A stretch of DNA of 64,000 nucleotides from Bradyrhizobium sp. CB1015. GTDB lineage: Bacteria > Pseudomonadota > Alphaproteobacteria > Rhizobiales > Xanthobacteraceae. Positions 2,478 through 25,978 of the stretch are shown here, piece by piece (position 1 is the stretch's first letter; each line of letters starts with the position of its first letter). The notes beneath the pieces were generated by a model. The model was not told the DNA's origin and did not search any database. It was given only the letters and a program-made list of their open reading frames with translations. Both the position numbers and the translations under genes were made by a program. Location of the stretch: NCBI RefSeq assembly GCF_025200925.1, contig NZ_CP104174.1:7068001-7132000 (forward strand), read 5' to 3'.

Positions 2478-3164
2478 TTACCACGCCATGACGCTCGCAA
2501 GACGTGCGATCAGGTCCGGGTCGTCGAACGCGCTGGCGGAGGCGACCGCGCCTGCTCCAACCAGGTCAGCATGGCTGAGGCTGGTGCGGATGCCGACGGT
2601 TGGAATGCCGGCGGCCGTTGCGGACTGCACGCCGGTGCGGGAGTCCTCGAATGCGATCGAGGCTTGCGGGCTCGCGCCGACGAAACGCAGCCCTTCCTGA
2701 TAGGGCAGCGGATGCGGTTTGCCGTGCGGCAGCTCGGCGCCGATGACGAGCGCCTTGAAACGATGCATGATGCCGAGGCCGGAGAGCAGCAGCTCGGCGT
2801 TGAGACGCGGCGCGTTGGTTACCGCGACCATGGGAATGCCGGCGCCATCGGCGCGGTCGAGCAGCGCCATCAGGCCCGGCAGCGGCGCGATCTGCCCGGC
2901 CACGAGGGTGCGGAAGACCTCCTCCTTCTCTTCGAGGATGAGGGCGCGCCGCTCCGGCGCCTGGTGGGGCAGAAAGCGCTCACCGATCGCGACATTGGCG
3001 AAGCCCTGCAGCTCCCGGGAGAAGCGTGCGTGGTCGAAGACATGGCCGTGAGGACCGAGCACCTGGTTGAAAGCCTTCAAGTGCAACGGGTCGGTGTCGG
3101 CGAGCGTGCCGTCGATGTCGAACAACAATGCCCGGCCCATTCCATCGTGTTTGGTCTCGATCAT
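2478..3164 (-). CDS. HAD-superfamily (subfamily IA) phosphatase
   Basis: 228-aa haloacid-dehalogenase-like hydrolase. Motif I is FDIDGT with nucleophile D16 and acid/base D18. Motif II is the Thr in VAVTNAPRLNAELLLSGLG, the motif III Lys is in GKPHPLPY, and motif IV is FEDSRTGVQSA. A helical cap lies between motifs I and II, as in beta-phosphoglucomutase and glycerol-3-phosphatase relatives (CbbY/GPP type). The position directly upstream of glpR on the same strand suggests a phosphorylated C3 substrate, but the substrate is not determined by sequence. The start at 3164 has a weak purine stretch before it; ATG at 3140 is an alternative that keeps motif I. Confidence 0.82.
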   Translation of the reverse strand: MIETKHDGMGRALLFDIDGTLADTDPLHLKAFNQVLGPHGHVFDHARFSRELQGFANVAIGERFLPHQAPERRALILEEKEEVFRTLVAGQIAPLPGLMALLDRADGAGIPMVAVTNAPRLNAELLLSGLGIMHRFKALVIGAELPHGKPHPLPYQEGLRFVGASPQASIAFEDSRTGVQSATAAGIPTVGIRTSLSHADLVGAGAVASASAFDDPDLIARLASVMAW

Positions 3165-3318
3165 TTCCGTACTTTCCCAAATGCGCGACGCATCGATGCG
3201 GAAGGCGTATCAATAGGGCCTCGATCGCGCAATGACGCATCCACATGACCGGCAGGCGACACTCGACAAAGCCGCGCGCGACTGCAACACTGGTTGCAAG
3301 ATCAAAAAGGAGGAAACG

Positions 3319-3771
3319 ATGACGATCAACCGACGCGATCTGGCTCTCTCGACGCTCGCCGTCTCCGCGCTTGCGTTCGCCAGGCCGGCGCTCGCCGCTT
3401 CGGCAGACGAGGACGCCGTGGCGAAGAGGGTCGAGGCCTTCCGCCTCGCCCAGATCGCGGCCGATCCCAAGGCGCTCGGCGCGCTATGCGCGGAGGAGCT
3501 GAGCTACAGCCATTCCAGCGGAAAGGTCGAGGACAAGGCCACCTTCATCGCCAACGCGACCGACGGCAAGTCGAAGTTCTTGTCGATCGAGTACAAGGAT
3601 CCCACCATCAAGGTGGTCGGCCCCGCAGCGATCGTGCGTTTCCACTGGCTGGGCGAGCAGGAGATGGCGGCCGACGGGAAAAAAGTATCGACCAACCTTC
3701 ACATCCTGATGAACTGGCAGAAGCAAGGCGACGAGTGGAAGCTCTTGTCGCGGGCGGCGACGAAGTTGTGA
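3319..3771 (+). CDS. Tat-exported NTF2-like (SnoaL/DUF4440) protein
   Basis: 150-aa protein with a twin-arginine signal (INRRDLALSTLAVSALAFA, ending near ALAASA at about residue 28) and one NTF2-like fold domain. It carries the DUF4440 pattern AFRLAQIAADPKALGALCAEEL, then SYSHSSGKVEDKATFI, and ends WKLLSRAATKL. Such domains are small-molecule binding or isomerase-like pockets; no catalytic role can be assigned here. The ATG at 3319 is preceded by a strong aaggagg at 3308-3314. An in-frame ATG at 3232 lacks a Shine-Dalgarno sequence and would bury the Tat signal. Confidence 0.85.
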   Translation: MTINRRDLALSTLAVSALAFARPALAASADEDAVAKRVEAFRLAQIAADPKALGALCAEELSYSHSSGKVEDKATFIANATDGKSKFLSIEYKDPTIKVVGPAAIVRFHWLGEQEMAADGKKVSTNLHILMNWQKQGDEWKLLSRAATKL

Positions 3772-3779
3772 TGGCTTCT

Positions 3780-3942
3780 TACCCTCTCCCCTTGTGGGAG
3801 AGGGTGGCTCGCCGCGCAGCGGCGAGACGGGTGAGGGGGATGTCTCCGCGAGGGATACTCTCAAACGCCTGGGCAAGAAGAGAGATACCCCTCATCCGGC
3901 GCTTCGCGCCACCTTCTCCCACAAGGGGAGAAGGAAGAAGGC
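3780..3942. repeat. Palindromic intergenic repeat (family A)
   Basis: Outer arms are ccctctccccttgtgggaga near 3783 and ccttctcccacaaggggaga ending near 3942. The inner segment contains gccgcgcagcggcgag and ggcgcttcgcgcc hairpins. Related copies occur at 46888-47092, 55490-55636 and, in altered form, 43131-43494. It lies just past the stop of the NTF2-like gene and could fold into one long hairpin in mRNA. Confidence 0.8.
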
Positions 3943-4008
3943 AGCAACATCAAGGGCGGCAATAAATTCCGACCACGCTCCACGCGCCCGGAATACCAGC
4001 GGAGGTCG

Positions 4009-4200
4009 TTACGCCGCCTCCTTCACGTCGCCGTTCACCAGCCTGCGCGCGGCGCGCTCGGCTTCGCGGGGGTTGCGGAAGAGCTGGCCTTCGAGACGGT
4101 TGAAGCGGTGCGACGAGGCGAAGAAGCAATAGCCTCCAGAAGAACGAACGACGATACCTGCGGTCTGCGAATCGACTTCGATGATGTAGCTGTCCGGCAT
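4009..4200 (-). CDS. Small conserved hypothetical protein
   Basis: 63-aa protein beginning MPDSYIIEVDSQTAGIVVRS and continuing through GGYCFFASSHRFNRLEGQLF to RNPREAERAARRLVNGDVKE. It has no signal peptide or membrane segment. The beta-rich start and charged helical end resemble short rhizobial proteins of unknown role. The ATG at 4200 has gagga about 10 bp upstream. A longer reading frame to 4317 exists, but the extra N-terminus has no protein-like composition. Function unknown. Confidence 0.6.
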   Translation of the reverse strand: MPDSYIIEVDSQTAGIVVRSSGGYCFFASSHRFNRLEGQLFRNPREAERAARRLVNGDVKEAA

Positions 4201-4423
4201 GGTCCGTGGATTCCTCAGTGCGGGCAAACAACGGTGCTCCTGCCCAAAGGTTCCCAAGGGCATTTGCGGCCGTTTCCACCCCGAATCGACATGCAATTGA
4301 GTACGCCGGGACCTCATCCGTTTTATGACTGGTTCTTGGCGAAGCCGCGACGAGGATGACTTGCTCGTGCCGCGTTTTGCGGCGCTGCAAAGCCTCCAAG
4401 ATGAGGCAGAGCGTCGCGCGCGA

Positions 4424-21916: not shown

Positions 21917-22558
21917 ATGACCCGTTTTGATAAGTTCTTTGGACTGAAGGCGATAACTCTCTCCGCGGCCCTGTCGATGACGGCGAGCCTTGCGCTGGCC
22001 GGCGACAACAATTTCTCCGCCAGCCAGATCGTGGACGCGCTCAAGCCGAAGCCGGCCACCCGCGGCCTGTCCGTTGGTCCCCAGGCCGACACGACCGTGC
22101 AGGCCAAGGAAGCGACCTTCCTGAACACCGTGCGCAACCGCTCGACCCGGTCGCTCTCGACGGGCGAGCGCGAGCAGATCGCCGAGTTGGCTGCAACCAA
22201 GCCGAAGATCGATCTGGAGATCCAGTTCGACTACAACTCGGCCGACATCGCCAAGACCTCTGTGGCATCGGTGCAGGCGCTCGGCAAAGCGCTGTCCGAT
22301 CCGGCGCTGAAGGGCTCGACCTTCGTCGTCGCCGGCCACACCGACGCGATCGGCGGCGAGGAGTACAATCAAGGTCTCTCCGAGCGGCGCGCCGACACCA
22401 TCAAGAAGTATCTGGTGCAGAACTACGGCCTCAACGGCGCGGATCTGGTCACCGTCGGCTACGGTGAGACCAAGCTGAAGGATGCCGCCAACGGTGCCGC
22501 CCCGATCAACCGCCGCGTCCAGGTCGTGAACATGGACACCAAGACCGCGGCGAAGTAA
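21917..22558 (+). CDS. OmpA-family peptidoglycan-binding protein
   Basis: 213-aa exported protein. The signal peptide is about residues 1-28 (LSAALSMTASLALAG). A linker of about 65 residues follows, then a C-terminal OmpA domain (about 98-208) with LEIQFDYNSADIAKTS, VVAGHTDAIGGEEYNQGLSE, the RRADTIKKYL helix and VTVGYGETKL, which bind diaminopimelate of peptidoglycan. There is no beta-barrel and no lipobox, so it is probably periplasmic and tethers envelope to wall. gagga sits 9 bp before the ATG. The upstream CRP-like site suggests regulation by a Crp/Fnr protein. Confidence 0.88.
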   Translation: MTRFDKFFGLKAITLSAALSMTASLALAGDNNFSASQIVDALKPKPATRGLSVGPQADTTVQAKEATFLNTVRNRSTRSLSTGEREQIAELAATKPKIDLEIQFDYNSADIAKTSVASVQALGKALSDPALKGSTFVVAGHTDAIGGEEYNQGLSERRADTIKKYLVQNYGLNGADLVTVGYGETKLKDAANGAAPINRRVQVVNMDTKTAAK

Positions 22559-22611: not shown

Positions 22612-23988
22612 TCATATCCAGCTTTGGAACAGCATCAGCCGGTTGAAGCTCCCCATAGAGGTGCCGACGAACGCCGCGGAAATCGGCAGCATCACCGCAA
22701 AAACGGCCGCGGCGACGCCGACATAGGCCCACAACAGCCAGCGCGGCATCCCCTCGCGGCGCAGCACATACACCAGTGCCAGCGACGCCGCTGTCGCGGC
22801 CGGCAGATAATAATAGATGAAGCCCAGCGTGCGCGGCAGCAACGCCCAGGCCAGCCAGGGACCGAAGTAGAATGCCGCGATCAGGAATGCGTCCCAGCGC
22901 CGCGCCACGATGAAATCGCGCAGCACCATGGCGAGTGCGGGCAGTGCCGGCCAAAGCACGAGCGGATTGCCGAGGAAGACGATCGCAGCGACGTGGTCCT
23001 CCGCGGACTTGTCGAACAGGAACCAGACCGGGCGCGCGAGCAGAGGCCAGGACGGCCATGCGCTCATATAGGTGTGGCCGGCGATGGCCGTCGTGGTGTT
23101 GTCGGCAAAGATCCGGCGCTGCGCCTCGATCAAGTCCGGCAGTGACAATCCGTAGAGCGGAACGAAGGCCGCAAGATAAGTCATGCCCGGCAGGACGGCG
23201 AAGCAGAGCGCGACATGATGCAGCTTCAGGCCGGGCCAAAGCTCCGGCCGATACCAGTCGTCCGGCTTCGCGTCGGCGAACAGCGTGTGCCAGCCCTGCA
23301 TCAGGCGGATCACCGCAACAATGACGATGCAGACGCCGAGCGGGAACAGACCGCTCCATTTACACGCGGCCGCAAGGCCGAACAGGCTGCCTGCCACCGC
23401 GAACAGCGCTTGCGGCCGCTCTCTGCGAAACCCGTGCATGAAAGCAGCGGTGGCGAGCAGGCCGAAGCCGAGCGCAAAGATATCGAGCATCGCGATGCGC
23501 GCCTGGACGTACAGCATCTGGTTGAAGGCTGCAATCAGCGCGGCGGCGATCGCCGGCCCCTGCGCCGCGAACAGCGCGAATCCGCACAGATAGATCGCGA
23601 CGATCGCGAGCGCACCGAACAAGGTCGCGGGATAACGCCAGCCAAGCGCGTTGTCGCCGAAGGTTGCGATCGATGCCGCGATCAGCTCCTTGGCCAGCGG
23701 CGGATGCATCGGATTGAGCATCGGCTGCGACGTCGCGGGCGTCAGCATCTGGCGCGCGGCCGGCACGTAATGCACCTCGTCGAACACGAATTTTTCCGGC
23801 GTGACGACGCCGATCAACAGCGCCACATGCGCGATCAGGAAAATCGCGACAGCAATCACTGCACTCCGCGACACCGCCGGAACCGCAGGCAATTCGTGCG
23901 TCTTTTGTGGGGCTGTCTTGCGTGGCAAATTGGCTGCACCGCGGAGAAAAACAAACTGCTTCCCGTCATTGAACGCATTCTGCCGCAA
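22612..23988 (-). CDS. Polytopic glycosyltransferase, PMT/dolichyl-phosphate-mannose mannosyltransferase-like (GT-C)
   Basis: 458-aa GT-C fold membrane enzyme with about 11 helices. The acidic catalytic pair of the family is in KFVFDEVHYVPAARQ in the first periplasmic loop. MHPPLAKELIAASIATFGDN and the RYPATLFGAL segment are also PMT hallmarks, as is KWSGLFPLGVCIVI. It likely transfers a sugar from a polyprenyl-phosphate donor on the periplasmic face; the acceptor is unknown. The frame opens at TTG 23988, but the first 35 residues are not membrane-like. A GTG at 23874, just before SRSAVIAVAIFLIAH, is a real alternative. Convergent with ompA, divergent from the FecR gene. Confidence 0.78.
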   Translation of the reverse strand: MRQNAFNDGKQFVFLRGAANLPRKTAPQKTHELPAVPAVSRSAVIAVAIFLIAHVALLIGVVTPEKFVFDEVHYVPAARQMLTPATSQPMLNPMHPPLAKELIAASIATFGDNALGWRYPATLFGALAIVAIYLCGFALFAAQGPAIAAALIAAFNQMLYVQARIAMLDIFALGFGLLATAAFMHGFRRERPQALFAVAGSLFGLAAACKWSGLFPLGVCIVIVAVIRLMQGWHTLFADAKPDDWYRPELWPGLKLHHVALCFAVLPGMTYLAAFVPLYGLSLPDLIEAQRRIFADNTTTAIAGHTYMSAWPSWPLLARPVWFLFDKSAEDHVAAIVFLGNPLVLWPALPALAMVLRDFIVARRWDAFLIAAFYFGPWLAWALLPRTLGFIYYYLPAATAASLALVYVLRREGMPRWLLWAYVGVAAAVFAVMLPISAAFVGTSMGSFNRLMLFQSWI

Positions 23989-24092: not shown

Positions 24093-24794
24093 ATGAATTT
24101 GCGTTTTTGGCTTTTACCCACACTGCTCACGGCCGCAATCTGCGCGGCGTCCGGCGCCAAGGCGCAGACGCGCGTCGGCGAGGCCGTCGTGATCCAGAAC
24201 GACGTGGTGCGCGTCGCCACGACCACGACGCCGATCAATGTCGGCGACAGCATGCTGCGCGACGAGACCGTGCGGACCGGCGCCGACAGCGCGGCGCGTT
24301 TCGTCATGGCCGACAGCACCAATCTGTCGCTCGGCCCGAGCGCCACGCTGAAGCTCGACCGCACCGTCTTCAACGACGAGCGCAGCTATCGCGACGTTGC
24401 GATCCGCATGACCACCGGCGCCTTCCGCTTCGTCACCGGACACTCCGACAAGGCCGCCTACAAGATCACGACGCCGCTCGCCACCATCGGCGTGCGCGGC
24501 ACGACGCTCGACATTCTCTCGCAGCGCGGGCGCTCCGTCGTCGTGCTTCAGGACGGCGCGGCCAGCGTCTGCACGAAGAGCGGCCAGTGCGTGCAACTCA
24601 CCCAACCCGGCGACACCGCCATCATCACCTCGACCGGCGGCAAGGTGAGCATCACCAAGACCAACACGCCGCCCTGGACCTTCGCCGCCAATTGCGCCGC
24701 CAGCGCCGGGTTGTGCGCAGTCAACCAGTACGCCGGCGCCTCGCCGACCATCACGCCTGCCGTCCAGGACGACGCCATGCTGTGCGGGCGCTGA
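24093..24794 (+). CDS. Secreted FecR-domain protein
   Basis: 233-aa exported protein with a signal peptide about 1-25 (FWLLPTLLTAAICAASGAKA). The FecR domain reads VGEAVVIQNDVVRV, GDSMLRDETVRTGADSAARF, LSLGPSATLKLD, FRFVTGHSDKAAYKITTPLA and TIGVRGTTLDILSQRGRSVV. The tail has four cysteines (SVCTKSGQCVQL, AANCAASAGLCAV). Classical FecR is a sigma-factor regulator next to FecI and a TonB receptor; neither is present. Instead the next gene, 2 bp after the stop, is an outer-membrane beta-barrel. The ATG at 24093 opens directly on the signal peptide; an upstream in-frame ATG at 24024 would spoil it. Confidence 0.82.
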   Translation: MNLRFWLLPTLLTAAICAASGAKAQTRVGEAVVIQNDVVRVATTTTPINVGDSMLRDETVRTGADSAARFVMADSTNLSLGPSATLKLDRTVFNDERSYRDVAIRMTTGAFRFVTGHSDKAAYKITTPLATIGVRGTTLDILSQRGRSVVVLQDGAASVCTKSGQCVQLTQPGDTAIITSTGGKVSITKTNTPPWTFAANCAASAGLCAVNQYAGASPTITPAVQDDAMLCGR

Positions 24795-24796
24795 CG

Positions 24797-25978
24797 ATGG
24801 CGAAATTCAACTTCCGGCTCTTCCTCACCGGCCTGCTGACCGTGGCCGCTGCGCTTGCGTTTGTCGCGTTCGATGTTCGTCAAGCGGCGGCCCAGGCGGC
24901 CTGCGAAACCGGATGCGGCGAGCCGACCCCCTACCCGACCTATTCGCCGTCGCCAACGCCGACTTATTCGCCGTCACCGACACCGACACCGACATATTCC
25001 CCGTCGCCCAACCCGTCCCCTTCGCCGAGTCCCTATCCGTCGCCCTCGCCCAGTCCGTACCCGGTACCGAGCCCGACGCCGACCGGCGCGGATTCCAGCG
25101 GCAATTCGATCGGCGGCCTCGCGGGTCAGCGCTTCAACCAGATGATCACCAATCGGGTGCTCGGCACGGTGCTGCTCGGCGTGAACGAGCAGATCAATTG
25201 CGGCGATTGCATCAGCGCGTTCGGCTCGGCCGGCTCTTTCTCGGCCGGCATCCACGGCCGCAAGGAGCTGACCAACAATCTGTCGCTGCTGGCCGGCATT
25301 GCCTACACGCACTACAACGAGGGCGGCTACAAGATCACGAGCGCACCGATCGGCGCTTTCGCGCTGCGCTACGACTTCACCGACTGGGGCTCGTCGCGCC
25401 CGTTCTTCGACGTCGGCGCGATCCTGACGCCGTGGGAGAAGGCGCGCTACACGCGCAGCTACGACACCAGTCTCGGCCCGGTGAGCGTGACAAGCTCGAC
25501 CAACGCGTCCAACTACGCCGTCTACGGCCGCGCCGGCTGGATCAGCCGCCTCTCGCCGCGCGACGAGGTCGCGGCCTCGATCGAGGTCTGGCAGCTCTGG
25601 CAACGCGTCTCCGGCTATAGCGACAATGCGGTGGCGTTCAATCCGTTCGGCGCCAGCATCGCTGATGGCACCGACCGCACCAGCCTCGTCAAGATCGGCG
25701 GCCAGTGGACGCATCTGTTCGGCAGCAACATCGAGACCAATATCAATGGCGGCTGGGTGCAGTCCTTCGCCAGCCACAGCGGCATCGTCGCCACCGTGAG
25801 CGGCCAGGACATGGTGGTGCCGACCATGGGCAACCAGGGCTGGTTCGAATATGGCGGCCGCCTTGGCTTCCGCGTGCAGAAGGGCTGGATCGTGGACCTC
25901 TTCGCCAACGGCACGCTCGGCCCGCAGCCGGTCGGCAACACCATTCATGGCGGCGTGGGACTGAGGATCAATTATTAG
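24797..25978 (+). CDS. Outer-membrane beta-barrel (autotransporter-like) with Pro/Ser/Thr-rich N-terminal stalk
   Basis: 393-aa exported protein with a signal peptide about 1-34. Next comes a short Cys pair (ACETGCGEP) and a low-complexity stalk at about residues 43-96 built of PTPTYSPSP-type units. A 290-residue domain of alternating amphipathic strands follows (SAGIHGRKELTNNLSLLAGIAYTHY, RPFFDVGAIL, NYAVYGRAGWISRL, TSLVKIGGQWTHLFGSN). It ends in GVGLRINY with a terminal aromatic, as expected of a barrel folded by BAM. The passenger is only the stalk, so this is not a classical large autotransporter. The start lies 2 bp after the FecR gene stop, so the two are co-translated. Confidence 0.75.
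   Translation: MAKFNFRLFLTGLLTVAAALAFVAFDVRQAAAQAACETGCGEPTPYPTYSPSPTPTYSPSPTPTPTYSPSPNPSPSPSPYPSPSPSPYPVPSPTPTGADSSGNSIGGLAGQRFNQMITNRVLGTVLLGVNEQINCGDCISAFGSAGSFSAGIHGRKELTNNLSLLAGIAYTHYNEGGYKITSAPIGAFALRYDFTDWGSSRPFFDVGAILTPWEKARYTRSYDTSLGPVSVTSSTNASNYAVYGRAGWISRLSPRDEVAASIEVWQLWQRVSGYSDNAVAFNPFGASIADGTDRTSLVKIGGQWTHLFGSNIETNINGGWVQSFASHSGIVATVSGQDMVVPTMGNQGWFEYGGRLGFRVQKGWIVDLFANGTLGPQPVGNTIHGGVGLRINY
24930..25085 (+). repeat. Degenerate in-frame tandem repeat coding the Pro/Ser/Thr stalk
   Basis: Short units such as ttattcgccgtc, gccgacaccgac and ccgtcgcc recur in phase and encode alternating Pro with Ser, Thr or Tyr. The repeat is a likely site of length change between strains by slippage in multiples of three. 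Confidence 0.7.

Follow-up and report, generated by a model that had tools for sequence, protein, structure and literature searches.

Two adjacent genes in a 64,000-nucleotide stretch of the Bradyrhizobium sp. CB1015 genome (NZ_CP104174.1, positions 7,068,001 to 7,132,000; hereafter the window) encode a FecR-domain protein and an outer-membrane barrel protein with a proline/serine/threonine (P/S/T) stalk. That they form a conserved, co-translated pair is near certain. In most Bradyrhizobium genomes covered here the two genes stand side by side, and they persist or disappear jointly. This suggests a surface unit made of two proteins, so far uncharacterised, and not an iron-signalling regulator. 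As the best overall explanation, to which we assign a probability of about 0.45, the pair would build one envelope unit in which FecR caps, anchors or stabilises an autotransporter-type barrel. To an earlier sequence-only reading of this DNA we add the predicted autotransporter type of the barrel, the likeness of FecR to adhesin anchoring domains, a fifth cysteine together with an LCGR tail, a CxxC motif in the barrel protein and a divergent PMT-family (protein O-mannosyltransferase-like) gene. The features of the pair are:

24093..24794, + strand: FecR-domain protein, open reading frame of 233 residues (stop codon counted in)
24093..24164, + strand: FecR signal peptide, probably Sec, cleavage after AKA (by eye)
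24267..24563, + strand: PF04773 FecR domain, residues 59-157 (Pfam match)
24780..24791, + strand: C-terminal LCGR tail of FecR including Cys231, conserved in relatives
24797..25978, + strand: stalked outer-membrane barrel protein, open reading frame of 393 residues (stop codon counted in)
24896..25087, + strand: P/S/T stalk, about residues 34-97 (by composition; DNA tandem repeats of 24 bases)
25085..25177, + strand: predicted lumenal helix, residues 97-127 (model; aligns with helix-bearing ranges of NalP, EstA and EspP)
25199..25210, + strand: CxxC motif (Cys135, Cys138) between helix and first strand, conserved in relatives
25208..25975, + strand: 12-strand barrel (predicted model, structure alignment)

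Conservation, loss and duplication of the pair

Two bases separate the FecR stop codon from the ATG of the barrel gene (24794 / 24797), as the sequence-only reading had stated. Differences at codon position 3 outnumbered those at positions 1 or 2 in 6/6 pairwise comparisons for each gene, and thus both frames are under selection. Since the pair is also conserved across the genus, it represents more than a chance arrangement. A scan for sigma-70-type promoters found 0 versus 0.4 expected, and the aligned upstream regions of 42 pairs displayed conserved blocks, none matching a nameable motif.

We searched 100 genomes including the window's own, 60 of them from the same genus. Clear barrel matches were confined to this genus, with only the stalk and surroundings matched in two others, and FecR relatives were present in 22 of 41 genera. 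Among 54 loci, 45 carried both genes and 42 were kept, the window's own included; a locus at a contig edge (L078), one with a frameshifted barrel gene (L081) and one with damaged genes (L082) were left out. The spacing was 2 bp or -1 in 41 of the 42 pairs, the last one (L079) having 21 bp with an automatically picked GTG start. A scan of named genomes, using the best 80 of 152 confirmed relatives, gave analogous results, although this set overlaps the unnamed one and the two are not independent. FecR was located directly upstream of the barrel gene in 80/80 named loci (2 bp in 62, -1 in 15, other or unassigned in 3), so that the adjacency proposed earlier as a check holds in relatives. Of these loci 79 are labelled Bradyrhizobium or Bradyrhizobiaceae; one is labelled Frankia, which we take as contamination.

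In 195 genomes of the genus, FecR (E 1e-40) was detected in 158, the barrel (E 1e-5) in 164 and both in 157, a count that takes in damaged copies such as those of G009 and G024. The single genome with FecR only (G015) encodes a 49% identical protein without the LCGR tail and with four cysteines, two of them aligned near positions 201/208. All seven barrel-only cases (G028, G045, G422, G423, G428, G463 and G495) are partial and lie towards the 3' end; the remnants adjoin the PMT-family gene in 6/7, G422 being cut by the contig end. When 27 near-full PMT-family proteins were placed in a FastTree tree, those from pair loci (14), from loci with remnant or damaged copies (7) and from loci with none (6) were intermixed, suggesting that the unit was lost on several independent occasions. 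Joint duplication was found once: G484 carries a second FecR–barrel pair elsewhere (L207 1001-2919), in which the 2-bp spacing, the LCGR tail and the CxxC all recur. No FecR–barrel fusion was seen in the two long open frames that were checked (L055, FecR only by Pfam; L051, FecR-cadherin-laminin G).

The two proteins and their proposed contact

Both products were read early on as exported, and by eye Sec signal peptides are present at both N-termini. FecR matches PF04773 with E 3.2e-15 and 56.8 bits (cut-off 24). Four cysteines had been counted in the secreted protein, a number that has to be corrected: the mature chain contains five (160, 166, 201, 208 and 231), and a sixth (17) lies within the signal peptide. 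All five are kept in 42/42 pairs, and Cys160/166 are nearly invariant in FecR relatives from other families too. The LCGR tail is present in 42/42 pairs and forms the C-terminal end of 79/80 named FecR proteins. Among the 120 best of 2545 database relatives, 115 carry it and the remaining five retain CG.

The second protein joins a P/S/T stalk to a barrel with an aromatic end, as described before; the stalk has 64 residues and the last residue is Tyr. Stalks consist of 73% P+S+T and range from 23 to 86 residues over 121 relatives. The CxxC was found in 42/42 pairs, 80/80 named loci and 120/120 of the best 120 of 888 database relatives. Pfam gave no match of note for the window protein and no autotransporter beta-domain; one relative reached 24.5 bits against a cut-off of 26, and 0/31 relatives matched at E 0.01. 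For some barrel relatives a newer accession, PF27998, is precomputed, which the Pfam scan run here did not report. Stalk matches to SslE, TonB and Trypan_PARP were discounted as low-complexity. Structure prediction, suggested earlier as a check, returned a 12-strand barrel for the C-terminal domain. Like the type Va autotransporters NalP, EstA and EspP, the modelled protein has 12 strands, a lumenal helix and an aromatic last residue. It differs in its CxxC before the first strand, in its separate FecR partner gene and in carrying a low-complexity stalk of 23-86 residues instead of a folded passenger. On these models an autotransporter-type barrel with an outward stalk is highly probable, and the predicted topology would display the stalk at the cell surface. 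A 732-residue autotransporter-like protein with HAF-like repeats by eye (L110 10-2208, G168) has a barrel about 30% identical to that of the window.

How might the two proteins work together? We propose that the barrel protein is a minimal type Va barrel that sits in the outer membrane, its pore occupied by its own N-terminal helix; the stalk would then extend outwards from the cell, serving as a very short passenger. FecR would be a soluble periplasmic module that uses its LCGR tail to dock at the periplasmic opening of the barrel, thereby capping, anchoring or stabilising its partner. That FecR is a physical partner of the barrel is likely. Its odd cysteine would then face the barrel CxxC, inviting a mixed disulfide; such a Cys231–CxxC bond is conceivable, if doubtful. 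The role of the unit is probably surface attachment or shielding. Of the earlier proposal of a surface-display or sensing unit with FecR capping or anchored by the barrel, the cap or anchor fits the data and is favoured, display follows from model topology, and sensing found no direct support. More speculatively, the tail disulfide might decide barrel plugging and the display of a perhaps O-glycosylated stalk, making the unit a redox-lockable outer-membrane anchor whose FecR would share its origin with adhesin retention modules. We consider this quite unlikely; if true, FecR folds would more generally serve to lock outer-membrane pores from the periplasm.

The FecR model resembles in fold the retention or anchoring domains of giant adhesins (PDB 5IX9; LapA retention module). 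The LapA module is part of the adhesin N-terminus, whereas the window FecR is a separate protein of 233 residues, and no [T/A/P]AAG LapG site was seen by eye in either protein (no AAG). A literature search, with few subscription papers within reach, found no paper on the FecR–barrel pair; among the matches listed none joined FecR with a retention module, nor did the accessible portion of PMC8277102 contain anything on such modules.

CdrA/CdrB, a type Vb system, resembles the pair in having two genes, one for an outer-membrane barrel, and cysteines near the C-terminus of the other product. But CdrB-kind barrels have 16 strands, whereas the window barrel is predicted to have 12. POTRA gave no match on it at E up to 1, and in the model the barrel is preceded by a helix and, ahead of that, the disordered stalk. 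FecR could, alternatively, be exported cargo that reaches the surface and is held there by its cysteine-bearing C-terminal end. Cys201/208/231 are conserved near this end, and CdrA is described as held in its partner barrel by a cysteine hook in the accessible part of PMC7616799. However, the barrel is predicted to be of the 12-strand autotransporter type and to hold a helix of its own within the pore. This, the missing POTRA match and an ordinary Sec signal as the only export signal recognised by eye in FecR argue against such a route, to which we give little credence.

Another arrangement would need no lasting contact: FecR might act as a transient chaperone for folding or export of barrel or stalk, or both proteins might serve one task separately as operon neighbours. 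The FecR–barrel contact is one that we infer, and tight spacing would also suit production in equal amounts. Yet joint loss and joint duplication, as well as the occurrence of the LCGR tail with barrel-paired FecR, make this improbable.

Several observations weigh against a dedicated FecR–barrel contact as favoured here. In G489 both genes are intact but about 2 kb apart. Two cysteines also occur within the last 12 residues of 3/16 unpaired FecR proteins (L061, L063 and L050), in other motifs. All models were computed for single chains, from shallow alignments of 31 and 32 rows, with a predicted local distance difference test (pLDDT) score of about 79; in the FecR model the tail is disordered, with pLDDT <50 at positions 190-208 of the mature protein. 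The match of FecR to the NCBIfam family retention_LapA reached 21.4-21.9 bits against a cut-off of 50. Finally, FecR elsewhere often adjoins CHASE2 genes, which is also consistent with signalling. In G489 the gap between the two genes (L205 about 2650-4400) holds a long open frame on the opposite strand that by eye resembles JmjC/cupin proteins.

FecR proteins in signalling

FecR domains are named for an iron-signalling regulator, yet this genome contains six FecR loci and neither DUF4880 nor STN was found in it. Could the window FecR be a classical sigma regulator that works with FecI and a TonB receptor? Having the PF04773 domain and its fold in common with such regulators is the only point for this. 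Genome-wide searches for DUF4880 and for STN found none, while both give hits in control genomes (STN in 4/14); neither domain appeared in the FecR protein at E up to 1, and no receptor bearing STN was detected. Compared with PupR/FecR regulators (PDB 6OVK), the window protein shares the PF04773 fold but has no cytoplasmic anti-sigma domain or STN, a signal peptide replaces the membrane anchor, and its partner is an autotransporter-type barrel instead. It ends before the STN subdomain: the alignment of the model stops at PupR residue 251, the rest being disordered. The receptor interface of PupR lies in the linker and STN part, according to the accessible text of PMC7186176, which further argues against a classical regulator. 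We therefore rejected the known FecR sigma mechanism, whose required parts are missing, and regard the classical reading as scarcely credible; FecR is very probably periplasmic and not a sigma regulator. As to the earlier statement that sigma factor and TonB receptor are absent, ten TonB-receptor barrels were found in the genome, of which the closest lies about 48 kb away from the pair, and no search was aimed at extracytoplasmic function (ECF) sigma factors. A FecI/TonB set encoded elsewhere that clearly pairs with this FecR, named earlier as a refuting result, did not turn up: the genome searches detected neither a receptor bearing STN nor a DUF4880 protein.

The link of FecR to CHASE2 points in another direction. 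Three of the six FecR loci of the genome adjoin CHASE2 genes, encoding a CHASE2-PAS-GGDEF-EAL protein at L049 and CHASE2-cyclases at L051 and L052. In other families FecR stands with a CHASE2-adenylate/guanylate cyclase and a TPR protein of 388-389 residues (L056 1103-7011; L057 262-4901; L062 1601-5937). All three TPR proteins end in Phe, and their C-terminus seems barrel-like; PF13505 matched one below threshold and was absent from the other two, and comparison with solved structures matched mainly TPR domains. CHASE2-cyclases also adjoin FecR in L060 and L068. No CHASE2 was recognised in L055, L059 and L061, where one protein each was scanned, nor in L058 and L064, where no protein was scanned. 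At L051 (2147-10205) the gene next to the CHASE2-cyclase encodes a 1916-residue protein with FecR, laminin-G and cadherin-like domains.

The pair could accordingly be a sensing unit, in which a signal or stress is detected by stalk or barrel and then relayed by a freed or reshaped periplasmic FecR to an inner-membrane receptor encoded elsewhere, for example a CHASE2 cyclase. Both the CHASE2-adjoining paralogues and the FecR/CHASE2/TPR sets support this, as does a Burkholderia operon (BiofilmReg) that encodes a FecR-LysM protein with a CHASE2 kinase, as far as the accessible part of PMC5192318 describes it. Like that protein and Sinorhizobium SMc02177, the window FecR is exported or otherwise extracytoplasmic, bears a FecR domain and is encoded among genes related to the envelope (PMC5192318, PMC5498481; both in part). 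But the window pair differs from FecR-CHASE2 loci, with no CHASE2 found by Pfam among the five neighbours scanned, and the comparison with SMc02177 covered the FecR domain. Moreover, barrel-paired FecR forms a separate branch with its own tail, and SMc02177 is dispensable for plant-signal perception according to the accessible part of PMC5498481. We thus consider sensing unlikely.

The favoured envelope unit offers a small, testable case of what an orphan FecR domain may do, namely serve one particular outer-membrane barrel. Should this prove true, sigma regulators, adhesin retention modules and autotransporters would be connected by a single fold acting where outer-membrane pores open to the periplasm, and there would be a first explanation for a surface structure widespread in this genus of legume symbionts.

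The divergent PMT-family gene and other neighbours

Two further genes were annotated beside the pair:

22612..23988, - strand: PMT-family gene, divergent neighbour, start provisional (PF02366, PF16192 and PF13231 over cut-off)
21917-22558, + strand: OmpA-family protein, upstream of the PMT-family gene (PF00691)

The PMT-family gene reached 65.6 bits against the NCBIfam equivalog, far under the cut-off of 800. It lies divergently beside the pair in 80/80 named loci. As an obligate third member, it is weakened by three exceptions: 12 of 60 same-genus genomes keep it without an intact pair, G033 has an intact pair with PMT-family fragments only, and the second pair of G484 showed no PMT match within the 6 kb read. 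O-glycosylation of the stalk by its product is possible, and the P/S/T stalk would be a natural substrate. An OmpA-family protein was also observed at the corresponding place in L065 and L067 (by sequence end).
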